A stretch of 64,000 nucleotides of DNA from Tubulanus polymorphus (taxonomy: Eukaryota > Nemertea > Palaeonemertea > Tubulaniformes > Tubulanidae). The stretch lies in the NCBI RefSeq assembly GCF_964204645.1, contig NC_134029.1:10034850-10098849 (forward strand), given 5' to 3'. Positions within the stretch are counted from its first letter, which is position 1; each line of letters opens with the position of its first letter. The notes under the pieces were generated by a model that saw only the letters and a program-made list of their open reading frames with translations, searched no databases and was not told the DNA's origin. A program made the translations under genes and the position numbers. Below, in pieces: positions 2,546 through 28,080 of the stretch.

Positions 2546-2612
2546 GGCGAGGTTTCTCTGGTATGCCGTGGCAGACTCGATGCCATCGCGTTCGAATCCC
2601 ATTTCTGAGGGA
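2546..2612 (+). repeat. tRNA-like relic beside the fold-back element
   Basis: It contains a good B box (GTTCGAATCCC) preceded by GGCAGACTC. The same GGCAGACTC word occurs in the tRNA-like piece at 34505-34565, which hints at a shared tRNA-derived family. The A box is poor, so this is not a functional tRNA. Confidence 0.3.
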
Positions 2613-2669
2613 GGATGTTAATACTTGGATTGCCACTCGTATTAATAGACGAGCCAATCAACCCATTGG

Positions 2670-5600
2670 TATGGTGGCTGATAAGGGCCATAGCGTAAAA
2701 TTCCTGGTATGTAAATGAGGGCGCCAGAACGCCAGAACGCCAAAACGAAAAAAAACGTCCAATTTTCTCTAAAAGTTCGTTTTGGCGCGCCAAAACAACG
2801 AATATTCCGTTTTGGCGCCCCCGCCAAAACGAACTTTCATTTTGGTGCCCCCGCCAAAACGAACTTTCGTTTTGGCGCCCCCGCCAAAACAACGAAAAAC
2901 GTCCAATTTTCTCTGAAAGTTCGTTTTGGCGAGCCAAAACAACGAATATTCCGTTTTGGCGCCCCCGCCAAAACGAACGGCGGGGGCGCCAAAACGAAAG
3001 TTCGTTTTTGGCGCCAAAACGGAATATTCGTTGTTTTGGCGCGCCAAAACGAACTTTCAGAGAAAATTGGACGTTTTTCGTTGTTTTGGCGGGGGCGCCA
3101 AAATGAAAGTTCGTTTTGGCGGGGGCGCCAAAACGGAATTTTCTCCGTTTTGGCGCGCCAAAACGAACTTTCAGAGAAATTTCGACGTTTTTCGTTGTTT
3201 TGGTGGGGGCGCCAAAACCAAAGTTCGTTTTGGCGGGGGCGCCAAAATGAAAGTTCGTTTTGGCGGGGGCGCCAAAACGGAATTTTCTTTGTTTTGGCGC
3301 GCCAAAACGAACTTTTAGAGAAAATTGGACGTTTTTCGTTGTTTTGGCGGGGGCGCCAAAACGGAATTTTCTCCGTTTTGGCGCGCCAAAACGAACTTTC
3401 AGAGAAATTTCGACGTTTTTCGTTGTTTTGGCGGGGGCGCCAAAACCAAAGTTCGTTTTGGCGGGGGCGCCAAAATGAAAGTTCGTTTTGGCGGGGGCGC
3501 CAAAACGGAATATTCTCCGTTTTGGCGCGCCAAAACGAACTTTTAGAGAAAATTGGACGTTTTTTTTCGTTTTGGCGTTCTGGCGTTCTGGCGCCCTCAT
3601 TTACATACCAGGAATTTTACGCTATGGCCCTTATCTATGGTGGCTGATAAGGGCCATAGCGTAAAATTCCTGGTATGTAAATGAGGGCGCCAGAACGCCA
3701 GAACGCCAAAACGAGAAAAAACGTCCAATTTTCTCTAAAAGTTCGTTTTGGCGCGCCAAAACAAAGAAAATTCCGTTTTGGCGCCCCCGCCAAAACGAAC
3801 TTTCATTTTGGCGCCCCCGCCAAAACGAACTTTCGTTTTGGCGCCCCCGCCAAAACAACGAAAAACGTCCAATTTTCTCTAAAAGTTCGTTTTGGCGCGC
3901 CAAAACAAAGAAAATTCCGTTTTGGCGCCCCCGCCAAAACGAACTTTCATTTTGGCGCCCCCGCCAAAACGAACTTTGGTTTTGGCGCCCCCGCCAAAAC
4001 AACGAAAAACGTCGAAATTTCTCTGAAAGTTCGTTTTGGCGCGCCAAAACGGAGAAAATTCCGTTTTGGCGCCCCCGCCAAAACGAACTTTCATTTTGGC
4101 GCCCCCACCAAAACGAACTTTGGTTTTGGCGCCCCCGCCAAAACAACGAAAAACGTCGAAATTTCTCTGAAAGTTCGTTTTGGCGCGCCAAAACAACGAA
4201 TATTCTGTTTTGGCGCCCCCGCCAATACGAACTTTAAACCACGTAAAATAATTCTATATATACGTAAAATATTTTCATTTATGCAAATTTATGCAAATTA
4301 CACACAAGATCAACGCGCCAATTTGAAAAATAATTTTACTGTGGTTGAATGCTTGTTTTGGCGGGGGCGCCAAAACGGAAATAACCGCGCCAAAACGAAC
4401 TTTTCTTTGTTTTGGCGCGCCAAAACGAACTTTCAGAGAAATTTCGACGTTTTTCGGTGTTTTATGGTGGCTGATAAGGGCCATAGTGTAAAATTCCTGG
4501 TATGTAAATGAGGGCGCCAGAACGCCAGAACGCCAAAACGAAAAAAAACGTCCAATTTTCTCTAAAAGTTCGTTTTGGCGCGCCAAAACAAAGAAAATTC
4601 CGTTTTGGCGCCCCCGCCAAAACGAACTTTCGTTTTGGCGCCCCCGCCAAAACAACGAAAAACGTCGAAATTTCTCTAAAAGTTCGTTTTGGCGCGCCAA
4701 AACGGAGAATATTCCGTTTTGGCGCCCCCGCCAAAACGAACTTTCATTTTGGCGCCCCCGCCAAAACGAACTTTCGTTTTGGCGCCCCCGCCAAAACAAC
4801 GAAAAACGTCGAAATTTCTCTAAAAGTTCGTTTTGGCGCGCCAAAACGGAGAATATTCCGTTTTGGCGCCCCCGCCAAAACGAACTTTCATTTTGGCGCC
4901 CCCGCCAAAACGAACTTTCGTTTTGGCGCCCCCGCCAAAACAACGAAAAACGTCGAAATTTCTCTGAAAGTTCGTTTTGGCGCGCCAAAACAAAGAAAAG
5001 TTCGTTTTGGCGCGGTTATTTCCGTTTTGGCGCCCCCGCCAAAACAAGCATTCAACCACAGTAAAATTATTTTTCAAATTGGCGCGTTGATCTTGTGTGT
5101 AATTTGCATAAATTTGCATAAATGAAAATATTTTACGTATATATAGAATTATTTTACGTGGTTTAAAGTTCGTATTGGCGGGGGCGCCAAAACGAAAGTT
5201 CGTTTTGGCGGGGGCGCCAAAACGGAATATTCTCCGTTTTGGCGCGCCAAAACGAACTTTCAGAGAAATTTCGACGTTTTTCGTTGTTTTGGCGGGGGCG
5301 CCAAAACGAAAGTTCGTTTTGGCGGGGGCGCCAAAATGAAAGTTCGTTTTGGCGGGGGCGCCAAAACGGAATTTTCTTTGTTTTGGCGCGCCAAAACGAA
5401 CTTTTAGAGAAAATTGGACGTTTTTTTTCGTTTTGGCGTTCTGGCGTTCTGGCGCCCTCATTTACATACCAGGAATTTTACACTATGGCCCTTATCAGCC
5501 ACCATAAAACACCGAAAAACGTCGAAATTTCTCTAAAAGTTCGTTTTGGCGCGCCAAAACGGAGAAAATTCCGTTTTGGCACCCCCGCCAAAACGAACTT

Positions 5601-6510
5601 TTAACGAACTTTTAACGAACTTTAAACCACGTAAAATAATTCTATTAATACGTAAAATATTCTCATATATGCAAATTTATGCAAATTACACACAAGATCA
5701 ACGCGCCAAATCGAAAAATAATTTTACTGTGGTTGAATGCTTGTTTTGGCGGGGGCGCCAAAACGGAAATAACCGCGCCAAAACGAAATTTTCTTTGTTT
5801 TGGCGCGCCAAAACGAACTTTCAGAGAAATTTCGACGTTTTATCGTTGTTTTGGCGGGGGCGCCAAAACGGATTTTTCTCCGTTTTGGCGCGCCAAAACG
5901 AACTTTAAGAGAAATTTCGACGTTTTTCGTTGTTTTGGCGGGGGCGCCAAAACGAAAGTTCGTTGTTTTGGCGCGCCAAAACGAACTTTTAGAGAAAATT
6001 GGACGTTTTTTTTCGTTTTGGCGTTCTGGCGTTCTGGCGCCCTCATTTACATACCAGGAATTTTACGCTATGGCCCTTATCAGCCACCATATTTTGGCGC
6101 GCCAAAACGAAGAAAATTCCGTTTTGTCGCGGTTATTTCCGTTTTGGCGCCCCCGCCAAAACAAGCATTCAACCACAGTAAAATTATTTTTCAATTTGGC
6201 GCGTTGATCTTGTGTGTAATTTGCATAAATTTGCATATATAGAATTATTTTACGTGGTCGAAAGTTCGTTTTGGCGGGGGCGCCAAAACGGAATATTCTA
6301 CGTTTTGGCGCGCCAAAACGAACTTTTAGAGAAATATCGACGTTTTTCGTTGTTTTGGCTGGGGCGCCAAAACGGAATTTTCTTTGTTTTTGCGCGCCAA
6401 AACGAACTTTCAGAGAAAATTTGACGTTTTTTTGTTTTGGCGTTCTGGCGTTCTGGCGCCCTCATTTACATACCAGGAATTTTACGCTATGGCCCTTATC
6501 AGCCACCATA
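2670..6510. mobile_element. Compound fold-back transposon, non-autonomous, IS3EU-like
   Basis: Both ends carry the same inverted terminus, TATGGTGGCTGATAAGG at the left and its complement ending CCACCATA at 6510. The whole block is flanked by the 6-bp direct repeat CATTGG (2664-2669 and 6511-6516), a clean target-site duplication. Inside are further termini: left-type at 3635 and 4463, right-type ending near 3635, 5506 and 6091, so this is a nest of elements rather than one. The body is made of GC-rich hairpin modules with a 144-bp period and contains four copies of an AT-rich spacer (4235-4391 plus, 5009-5165 minus, 5624-5779 plus, 6127-6258 minus). No transposase is present. From memory, TAYGG termini with 6-bp duplications are the mark of the IS3EU superfamily; assignment to it is inference. 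Confidence 0.85.
2774..4180. repeat. 144-bp-period array of GGCG palindromes
   Basis: Each period holds one perfect palindrome GTTTTGGCGCGCCAAAAC and two to three hairpins of type TTTTGGCGCCCCCGCCAAAA, joined by short AT linkers such as GAACTTTC and AACGTCGAAATTTCTC. Periods starting at 2774 and 2918 are exactly 144 bases apart, as are 4681, 4825 and 4969 in the next block. A shorter 114-base period at 4567 lacks one 30-base module. Both lengths are multiples of three, so long open frames run on both strands; they are by-products of the repeat. Confidence 0.85.
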
Positions 6511-6516
6511 CATTGG

Positions 6517-25874: not shown

Positions 25875-25880
25875 GGATAG

Positions 25881-26847
25881 TATGGTAGCTGATAAGGGCC
25901 ATAGCGTAAAATTCCTGGTATGTAAATGAGGGCGCCAGAACGCCAGAACGCCAAAACAAAAAAACGTCCAATTTTCTCTAAAAGTTCGTTTTGGCGCGCC
26001 AAAACAAAGAAAATTCCGTTTTGGCGCCCCCGCCAAAACGAACTTTCGTTTTGGCGCCCCCGCCAAAACAACGAAAAACGTCCAATTTTCTCTGAAAGTT
26101 CGTTTTGGCGCGCCAAAACGGATAATATTCCGTTTTGGCGCCCCCGCCAAAACGAACTTTCATTTTGGCGCCCCCGCCAAAACGAACTTTAAACCACGTA
26201 AAATAATTCTATATATACGAAAAATATTTTCATATATGCAAATTTATGCAAATTACACACAAGATCAACGCGCCAAATTGAAAAATAATTTTACTGTGGT
26301 TGAATGCTTGTTTTGGCGGGGGCGCCAAAACGGAAATAACCGCGCCAAAACGAACTTTTCTTTGTTTTGGCGCGCCAAAACGAACTTTCAGAGAAATTTC
26401 GACGTTTTTCGTTGTTTTGGCGGGGGCGCCAAAATGAAAGTTCGTTTTGGCGGGGGCGCCAAAACGGAATATTCTCCGTTTTGGCGCGCCAGAACGAACT
26501 TTTAGAGAAATTTCGACGTTTTTCGTTGTTTTGGCGGGGGCGCCAAAACGAAAGTTCGTTTTGGCGGGGGCGCCAAAACGGAATATTATCCGTTTTGGCA
26601 CGCTTCCGTTTTGGCGCGCCAAAACGAACTTTCAGAGAAAATTGGACGTTTTTCGTTGTTTTGGCGGGGGTGCCAAAATGAAAGTTCGTTTTGGCGGGGG
26701 CGCCAAAACGGAATTTTCTTTGTTTTGGCGCGCCAAAACGAACTTTTAGAGAAAATTGGACGTTTTTTTCGTTTTGGCGTTCTGGCGTTCTGGCGCCCTC
26801 ATTTACATACCAGGAATTTTACGCTATGGCCCTTATCAGCCACCATA
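25881..26847. mobile_element. Fold-back transposon, simple copy, IS3EU-like
   Basis: This is the cleanest member of the family. The left end is TATGGTAGCTGATAAGG and the right end finishes CCACCATA. It is flanked by the 6-bp direct repeat GGATAG (25875-25880 and 26848-26853). The order is inverted terminus, GGCG palindrome modules, AT-rich spacer with paired octamers (26191-26346), modules in inverse orientation, inverted terminus. It encodes nothing recognisable; the open frames on both strands are repeat by-products. Confidence 0.88.
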
Positions 26848-27909
26848 GGATAGGGATGATTGTTCTTATTCACTAATTGCGAATATTATTGTAATATCCT
26901 ATATTACAGCCCTTTTTCTCTTTTTTCTATCTTTTATGGTGGCTGATAAGGCCATAGCGTAAAATTCCTGGTATATAAATAAGGGCGCCAGAACGCCAGA
27001 ACGCCAAAACGAAAAAAATCGTCCAATTTTCTCTAAAAGTTCGTTTTGGCGCGCCAAAACAAAGAAAATTCCTTTTTGGCGCCCCCGCCAATACGAACTT
27101 TCATTTTGGCGCCCCTGCCAAAACAACGAAAAAATATTTTCAATATTTTCATACATGCAAATTTATGCAAATTACACACAAGATCAACGCGCCAAATTGA
27201 AAAATAATTTTACTGTGGTTGAATGCTTGTTTTGGTGGGGGCGCCAAAACGGAAATAACCTCGCCAAAACGAACTTTTAGAGAAAATTGGACGTTTTTTT
27301 CGTTTTGGCGTTCTGGCGTTCTGGTGCCCTCATTTACATACCAGGAATTTTACGCTATGGCCCTTATCAGCCACCATAGGATAGGGATGATTGTTCTTAT
27401 TCACTAATTGCGAATATTATTGTAATATCCTATATTACAGCCCTTTTTCTCTTTTTTCTATCTTTTATGGTGGCTGATAAGGCCATAGCGTAAAATTCCT
27501 GGTATGTAAATAAGGGCGCCAGAACGCCAGAACGCCAAAACGAAAAAAATCGTCCAATTTTCTCTAAAAGTTCGTTTTGGCGCGCCAAAACAAAGAAAAT
27601 TCCTTTTTGGCGCCCCCGCCAAAACGAACTTTCATTTTGGCGCCCCTGCCAAAACAACGAAAAAATATTTTCAATATTTTCATACATGCAAATTTATGCA
27701 AATTACACACAAGATCAACGCGCCAAATTGAAAAATAATTTTACTGTGGTTGAATGCTTGTTTTGGTGGGGGCGCCAAAACGGAAATAACCTCGCCAAAA
27801 CGAACTTTTAGAGAAATTTCGACGTTTATCGTCGTTTTGGTGGGGGCGCCAAAATGAAAGTTCGTTTTGGCGGGGGCGCCAAAACGGAATATTCGTTGTT
27901 TTGGCGCGC
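26848..27909 (+). repeat. 531-bp tandem duplication spanning fold-back elements
   Basis: The unique segment between elements (starting GGATAGGGATGATTG) occurs at 26848-26934 and again at 27379-27465, an offset of 531. Similarity continues into the following element until about 27275/27806, where the first copy switches to a terminal module and the second continues with inner modules. Confidence 0.85.
26935..27378. mobile_element. Recombinant fold-back copy (left of one, right of another)
   Basis: The left flank is ATCTTT (26929-26934), the duplication belonging to the next element. The right flank is GGATAG (27379-27384), belonging to the previous one. The mismatched flanks and the short length show that this copy was not inserted as such but arose by recombination between the two neighbours. 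Its spacer is at 27133-27265. Confidence 0.75.
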
Positions 27910-28074
27910 CAAAACGAACTTTTAGAGAAATTTCGACGTTTTTCGTTGTTTTGGCGCGCCAAAACGAACTTTTAGAGAAAATTGGACGTTTTTTTTCGTT
28001 TTGGCGTTCTGGCGTTCTGGCGCCCTCATTTACATACCAGGAATTTTACGCTATGGCCCTTATCAGCCACCATA
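27466..28074. mobile_element. Fold-back transposon, second complete insertion
   Basis: Termini are TATGGTGGCTGATAAGG (one base is lost shortly after, GGCCATAG) and CCACCATA. It is flanked by the 6-bp direct repeat ATCTTT (27460-27465 and 28075-28080). The left half and the 87 bases before it are near-identical to 26848-27265, at an offset of 531 bases. Confidence 0.82.
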
Positions 28075-28080
28075 ATCTTT

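Follow-up and report, generated by a model that had tools for sequence, protein, structure and literature searches.

Three insertions within a 64,000-nucleotide stretch of the nemertean Tubulanus polymorphus (contig NC_134029.1, positions 10,034,850 to 10,098,849; C5 in our contig numbering, with the whole stretch hereafter called the window) share the ends TATGG...CCATA and long, inverted, hairpin-rich arms. To which transposon superfamily do such insertions belong, and which enzyme moves them? A first-pass annotation of the window had proposed a fold-back family of the IS3EU type without coding capacity. We searched the genome (267.8 Mb, 77 contigs) for relatives. The results support reading the window elements as non-autonomous members of IS3EU whose Foldback/Galileo-like arms are built from a 144-bp hairpin module, because a partner transposase, the ends, the duplications and a second family all agree on this assignment.

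Ends and target-site duplications

The insertions at 2670-6510, 25881-26847 and 27466-28074 were confirmed to carry TATGG...CCATA ends and to lie between the exact 6-bp direct repeats that had been reported for them, CATTGG, GGATAG and ATCTTT, respectively. The last of these also stands on the left of a recombinant copy (26935-27378), as had been noticed. A genome search with the terminal 42 bases, of the kind that the first-pass annotation had suggested, returned 251 matches at three or fewer mismatches (128 forward, 123 reverse), against 0 for a reversed-pattern control. From listed places that include about 100 of the 251 matches, 52 loci (L009-L060) around TATGG-type ends were picked by hand with a preference for pairs of facing ends, and they do not form a random sample; the overlapping L001-L008 were not counted. 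L013, L015, L047, L048, L049, L054, L056 and L060 were excluded for having fewer than two usable ends, and L016 duplicates L021. The final sample comprises 46 copies with both ends, the three window copies included.

A 6-bp duplication flanks 36 of these 46 copies, and duplications of any other length were found in none (0/46). When left and right flanks were paired across different copies, 0 of 2070 mismatched pairings agreed over six or more bases (the longest agreement was 5 bp, n=2), against 36 of the 46 true pairs. A chance origin of the duplications is thereby excluded. The middle of the target is AT-rich, with A or T at position 4 in 33 of the 36 duplications, and the copies that carry a duplication range in length from 297 to 9888 bp.

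An autonomous partner in the same genome

The claim that these elements have no coding capacity stands for the window copies as far as seen, in which the long open reading frames (ORFs) are repetitive arm frames only, but it fails for the family. TATGG-type ends and 6-bp duplications also occur in five long copies (L009, L010, L011, L012 and L024; 8831-9888 bp), which are full-length relatives of the window elements. A sixth long copy, L013, has one end within the stretch fetched, and its second end was not found in the adjoining stretch (L048). The 7.2-kb interiors of the long copies are 99.6-99.9% identical to that of L009, which suggests that autonomous copies may have spread recently. Each interior holds two convergent genes, a multi-exon DDE transposase gene and a single-ORF gene for a predicted HECT E3 ubiquitin ligase.

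The exon-like ORFs of the transposase gene tile the integrase-core profile PF24764 (rva_4) at profile positions 5-32, 62-103, 103-140 and 142-173. Each exon ORF by itself falls under the curated cut-off of this profile, and a spliced partial model of 376 residues scores 133 bits (cut-off 26; E=1.1e-38). Residues D127, D186 and E223 form a candidate catalytic triad with 36 residues between D186 and E223. All nine segments of the model are open in L009, L010 and L012, and third codon positions are the fastest-diverging ones in three of the exons. Among NCBIfam models the nearest are IS481 (6.1e-7) and IS3 (4.1e-5), neither of which comes close to its curated cut-off. Sequence searches of PDB with the transposases gave nothing useful (two matches at E 1.3 and 1.4 in one search, 0 in another).

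Two side observations concern the autonomous copies. Positions 1949-2081 of L009, in an intron of the transposase model, resemble the subterminal region of the element itself (about 70% similarity) and lie mostly inside a segment of about 160 bp that is absent from L024; they are possibly an old inserted arm. Three damaged autonomous copies stand about 23 kb apart at C12:6503838-6553210, a spacing that suggests a tandem segmental duplication.

Assignment to the IS3EU superfamily

Both halves of the rule by which the first-pass annotation had named IS3EU are in print, 6-bp target-site duplications in PMC12730594 and TA..TA termini in PMC10045372. As in IS3EU/GingerRoot elements described in these two sources, the present elements combine 6-bp duplications, TAYGG..CCRTA ends (TATGG..CCATA in the first family and TACGG..CCGTA in a second family described below), terminal inverted repeats (TIRs) longer than 30 bp, and an IS3/IS481-like DDE transposase encoded by full-length copies with the same ends. 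A second gene opposite the transposase is a further likeness, and in fungal TET+ families it encodes an alpha-kinase. The present elements differ from the described ones in that the second gene encodes a putative HECT ubiquitin ligase and the arms consist of 144-bp hairpin modules. The transposase, as read from its partial model, appears consistent with IS3EU/GingerRoot.

Arms of this kind are better known from other superfamilies. Foldback elements have a fold-back structure with tandem repeats in their TIRs, FB-NOF being related to MULEs, and MULE duplications measure 8-10 bp. Galileo (P superfamily, Drosophila; PMC3573991) has long TIRs, many TIR-only copies and chimeric copies, and TIR tandem repeats in one of its subfamilies differ in number between the two TIRs; Tetris of Drosophila virilis (PMC4079207) likewise has a fold-back structure with tandem repeats (TIR-220) inside its TIRs. 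These likenesses are what a Foldback/Galileo-type origin in the MULE/Mutator or P superfamily has to offer, with the ends and the 6-bp duplications left as coincidence. We consider such an origin scarcely credible, since the transposase encoded by autonomous copies with these ends is rva_4/IS481/IS3-like, which argues against MULE or P, and 36 of 36 duplications are 6 bp rather than the 7 bp of Galileo. Membership of P/Galileo was rejected on duplication length and the rva_4 transposase, and membership of MULE/Foldback on the transposase and duplication length. Galileo moreover has a P-type transposase, and the passages on it in PMC3573991 do not mention a HECT gene; Tetris is described as apparently nonautonomous (PMC4079207).

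The partner is thus an integrase-core transposase with sub-threshold IS481 and IS3 matches, and IS481 is its best NCBIfam match, which could point to a different integrase-like superfamily, namely Ginger1/2, Polinton or IS481EU. Polintons exceed these elements in size, code for a polymerase and differ in their ends, and no polymerase match was found among nine interior ORFs of L009 scanned, which are a part of its interior ORFs. Polinton also makes 6-bp duplications, and IS481EU has a related IS481-like transposase (PMC10045372). IS481EU, however, is described from parabasalids with duplications of about 4, 15 or 25 bp, TNT..AYA ends, TIRs mostly shorter than 50 bp and a single protein, and duplications measure 4 bp in Ginger1 and 4 or 5 bp in Ginger2 (PMC10045372). 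IS481EU, Ginger1 and Ginger2 were each rejected on duplication length and ends as set against these published criteria, and another integrase-like superfamily as a whole is quite improbable.

Hairpin modules and the AT-rich core

Each arm begins with a conserved terminal stretch starting TATGGTGGCTGATAAGGGCCATAG, followed by arrays of a 144-bp module that consists of one GGCGCGCC palindrome and three 30-bp GGCGCCCCCGCC half-hairpins. The modules face inward in both arms and their number varies independently per arm. Long-armed copies can be written 5'end-(p L L L)n-[core or genes]-(R R R p)n-3'end, where p is the GGCGCGCC palindrome and L and R are the two orientations of the 30-bp hairpin half-unit. 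A 144-bp period was found in both arms of L009, L012 and L031, and the arms of L031 are unequal (3.6 versus 8.8 periods). The inverted arms of a window copy measure 309-342 nt at 97% identity. When folded as DNA, the arm at 2670-2978 reaches z = -10.9, with 0 of 100 shuffles equally good, and a single module folded as RNA reaches z = -8.8. Long TIRs with variable tandem repeats are the anatomy of Foldback and Galileo, a likeness of structural class and not of lineage.

Between the arms usually lies either an AT-rich core of about 125 bp, in non-autonomous copies, or about 7 kb with the two convergent genes, in autonomous ones. The core is present in whole or in part in 27 of 31 arm-only copies with a 6-bp duplication (L031 holds just 55 bp of it) and absent from L023, L027, L041 and L059.

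Open frames within the arms, up to 741 codons long in L014, were considered as genes and set aside, as they are open on both strands and driven by the repeats; they stay stop-free because each of the periods (30, 84, 144 and 174 bp) is divisible by 3. Gene-prediction programs may report such frames in the arms of L014, L009 and L010 as repetitive proteins.

A second family with TACGG...CCGTA ends

The transposase led to a second family, in which L072 carries an intronless transposase ORF of 401 amino acids (PF24764, E=6e-36; HTH_21, E=5.4e-10). It is 39% identical to the transposase of the first family, and its D136, D195 and E236 match the D, D and E of the latter. The main alignment of two loci stops at TACGGAAGCGATAA, and a 20-base pattern from the terminus has 745 matches in the genome at three or fewer mismatches, against 5 for its control. 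Among 20 copies, chosen as facing-end pairs, the duplication measured 6 bp in 16 and 7 bp in two, and two had none; the two copies with 7 bp (L077 and L092) have the same flanks, as from one insertion that was later copied. L094, of 4220 bp, has a CATATC duplication and transposase fragments (36-37% identity) between 478-bp arms with 99% complementarity and many palindromes. Transposase type, TAYGG ends, 6-bp duplications and palindrome-rich arms thus go together in two families.

The intronless transposase locus was seen in L071-L074 (C3:15400000-15409900 and C4:17374400-17384300), which are 98.6-99% identical over about 8 kb on different contigs. One end of the locus was resolved, at a TACGG terminus; on the other side, further copies form a mosaic. 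Second-family-like termini lie inside, and the whole may be one large mosaic, or else a long unit that was transposed.

A fold-back form of IS3EU had been called unusual in the first-pass annotation. This agrees with the literature searched (Repbase not included), in which no description of HECT genes or of fold-back arms in IS3EU was found; it is qualified by the palindrome-rich arms of the second family and by satellites already tied to IS3EU. Many G2E3-like HECT genes of fish genomes are seemingly derived from repeats. Oyster satellites CgiSat35 and CgiSat47 have been assigned to IS3EU (PMC8268682), and in Tribolium one half of a repeat shows 86% similarity to an IS3EU element (PMC5844308); earlier work has thus already connected tandem repeats with IS3EU. 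In addition, Repbase held 45 IS3EU families in May 2022 (PMC10045372), and its entries are database records rather than full-text papers. IS3EU families with a HECT gene or with fold-back arms may therefore be catalogued there already while the papers are silent, which we regard as a serious possibility, not far short of probable, even though no paper was found, in the texts retrieved, that joins IS3EU, HECT and transposon, or that treats a HECT gene in a transposon.

The predicted HECT ubiquitin-ligase gene

The second gene of the autonomous copies is a stop-to-stop frame of 632 codons on the strand opposite to the transposase, with a PF00632 match of 36 bits (cut-off 23.9; E=7.9e-9). Its C-terminus aligns weakly with UBE3C around the active-site cysteine (RTC, versus STC in UBE3C; E=0.0051). 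The cysteine of the RTC motif, near residue 597 of 632, is presumably the catalytic one, and the domain together with a cysteine near the C-terminus places the predicted protein among HECT E3 ligases. The frame is stop-free over all 632 residues in six copies (the five long elements and L013), with a printed identity of 100%.

Genome-wide, 57 HECT matches merge to 35 loci. They were compared with 53 transposase loci, merged from 59 rows typed from 169 matches, not all of which were listed. A typed transposase locus lies within 12 kb of 23 of the 35 HECT loci, and the two genes are convergent in all 23 pairs; about 0.5% of random places lie this close to a transposase locus. All 14 HECT loci with at least 80% identity to the present gene are paired, as are nine of the 21 more distant ones. 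These nine, at 24-53% identity, are not all independent, and some look like copies of one family.

Between the present HECT gene and L069, a relative at 53% identity, the first, second and third codon positions differ at 0.39, 0.26 and 0.67 over 356 codons, the third thus diverging about 2.5 times as much as the second. The corresponding values for L070 are 0.41, 0.24 and 0.62 over 286 codons; this relative, at 51% identity, has four stops in the aligned stretch, and no transposase was found in the 9 kb searched around it. The active-site cysteine is retained in both. As third codon positions diverge most, in HECT and in the transposase alike, purifying selection has probably acted on both genes over much of the period since the families split.

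Proposed mechanism and its weight

Very probably, the insertions belong to one IS3EU-superfamily family with Foldback-like arms, which would be mobilised in trans by the transposase of its autonomous copies. To judge from element anatomy, this transposase would bind the shared ends, cut the element out and insert it with a 6-bp stagger, and it would act in trans on arm-only copies. The tandem repeats in Galileo TIRs have been proposed as secondary transposase binding sites (PMC3573991), and on this model the transposase probably binds the repeated subterminal modules as well. Modules may expand and contract, and copies may recombine, through unequal exchange and template switching at hairpins, events that could have produced the composite at 2670-6510 and the tandem arrangement at 25881-28074. 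The HECT protein would most likely help the element, either through ubiquitination of a host silencing factor or through control of the transposase level.

Several observations weigh against this picture. Ten of the 46 copies lack a duplication, and module order is degenerate in several short copies. A search for the AT-rich core gave no match in the autonomous copies (L009-L013 and L024), so arm-only copies are not simple deletion derivatives of the present autonomous copies. The transposase model is incomplete (the second segment lacks a GT donor and the first starts at an anchor, so that the 5' portion is provisional), segment 4 of L011 contains a stop, and not all anchors of the model were matched in L013 and L024. 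Finally, no typed transposase row was seen near 12 of the 35 HECT loci, and L094 gave no significant HECT match (best E 2.4); HECT is therefore not universal in these elements.

The last two observations also speak for HECT being a host gene captured by chance, with no role for the element. We think this unlikely, because the convergent order recurs at the nine loci where HECT is merely 24-53% identical, because of the excess of third-position over second-position divergence, and because the active-site cysteine persists in L069 and L070. A broader reading, which we put forward tentatively, is that this IS3EU lineage may carry an old, selected two-gene system, in which a convergent HECT gene serves beside the transposase as self-regulator or as counter-defence that destroys a host silencing factor, and that two or more families of the superfamily may have acquired fold-back arms as multi-site landing platforms for the transposase.

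Foldback-like repeats are often known without a mobilising enzyme, Tetris being one example (PMC4079207). Here the likely source of the enzyme resides in the same genome, in near-identical and so probably young copies, and the question of what moves fold-back repeats is thus open to direct test. The Foldback design is shown in the IS3EU superfamily, and IS3EU is linked to a ubiquitin ligase that, by analogy with the TET/JBP and alpha-kinase of fungal IS3EU (PMC12730594), is a candidate anti-silencing factor. The combination of an IS3EU-type transposase and a ubiquitin-ligase gene in one transposon was not found in the texts retrieved by our literature search, with prior cataloguing in Repbase as discussed above.

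Composite and recombinant copies in the window

The window elements do have fold-back arms, as the first-pass annotation had proposed, but the insertion at 2670-6510 reads as a composite in which at least four copies are nested or rearranged, rather than one simple fold-back (Table 1). The possibility that this composite transposes as a unit found no support: its inner junction at 3636, where the first unit meets the next 5' end, occurs once in the genome at two or fewer mismatches. The inner copy at 4463-5506 is flanked by inverted rather than direct repeats (20 of 20 adjoining bases, 69 of 74 overall), so template switching at a hairpin would fit it better than plain insertion. Joined flanks of the composite, as an empty site would show them, had 0 matches at three or fewer mismatches, which in one assembly is uninformative.

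The recombinant copy at 26935-27378 has ATCTTT on its left and GGATAG on its right and stands between two 87-bp spacers with 0 differences in 87. Its B-like state at 11 sites, copy A's right flank and the identical spacers fit an unequal crossing-over that joined copies A and B through their right arms, and its last 53 bases do not discriminate between the two.

Table 1. Coordinates of the elements, their parts and their duplications in the window
Positions	Feature	Strand	Remark
2664..2669	Left target-site duplication CATTGG		
2670..6510	Composite non-autonomous IS3EU-type fold-back element, TATGG...CCATA		Several nested/rearranged copies
2670..3635	Core-less fold-back unit		3' end minus last 10 bases
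3636..4462	Second unit: 5' end, left arm, AT-rich core, right-arm start	+	Core at 4226-4350; strand from core orientation
4463..5506	Inner complete copy	-	Both ends present; strand from core orientation
5507..6091	Partial copy: core and complete 3' end	+	
6092..6510	Partial copy: part of core and complete 3' end	-	Right end of composite
6511..6516	Right target-site duplication CATTGG		
25875..25880	Left target-site duplication GGATAG		
25881..26847	Non-autonomous copy A	+	967 bp
26848..26853	Right target-site duplication GGATAG		
26848..26934	87-bp spacer, first copy		
26935..27378	Recombinant copy with copy A's right flank	+	B-like at 11/11 informative sites (26941-27261)
27379..27465	87-bp spacer, second copy		Ends in ATCTTT, copy B's left duplication
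27466..28074	Non-autonomous copy B	+	609 bp
28075..28080	Right target-site duplication ATCTTT		

L028, L037 and L042 are composites too, with two or three 5' ends in succession, and resemble that at 2670-6510. Just left of the latter, at window positions 2590-2599, stands GTTCGAATCC, which we take to resemble a tRNA-type B box; the target of the insertion may be a tRNA-derived repeat.

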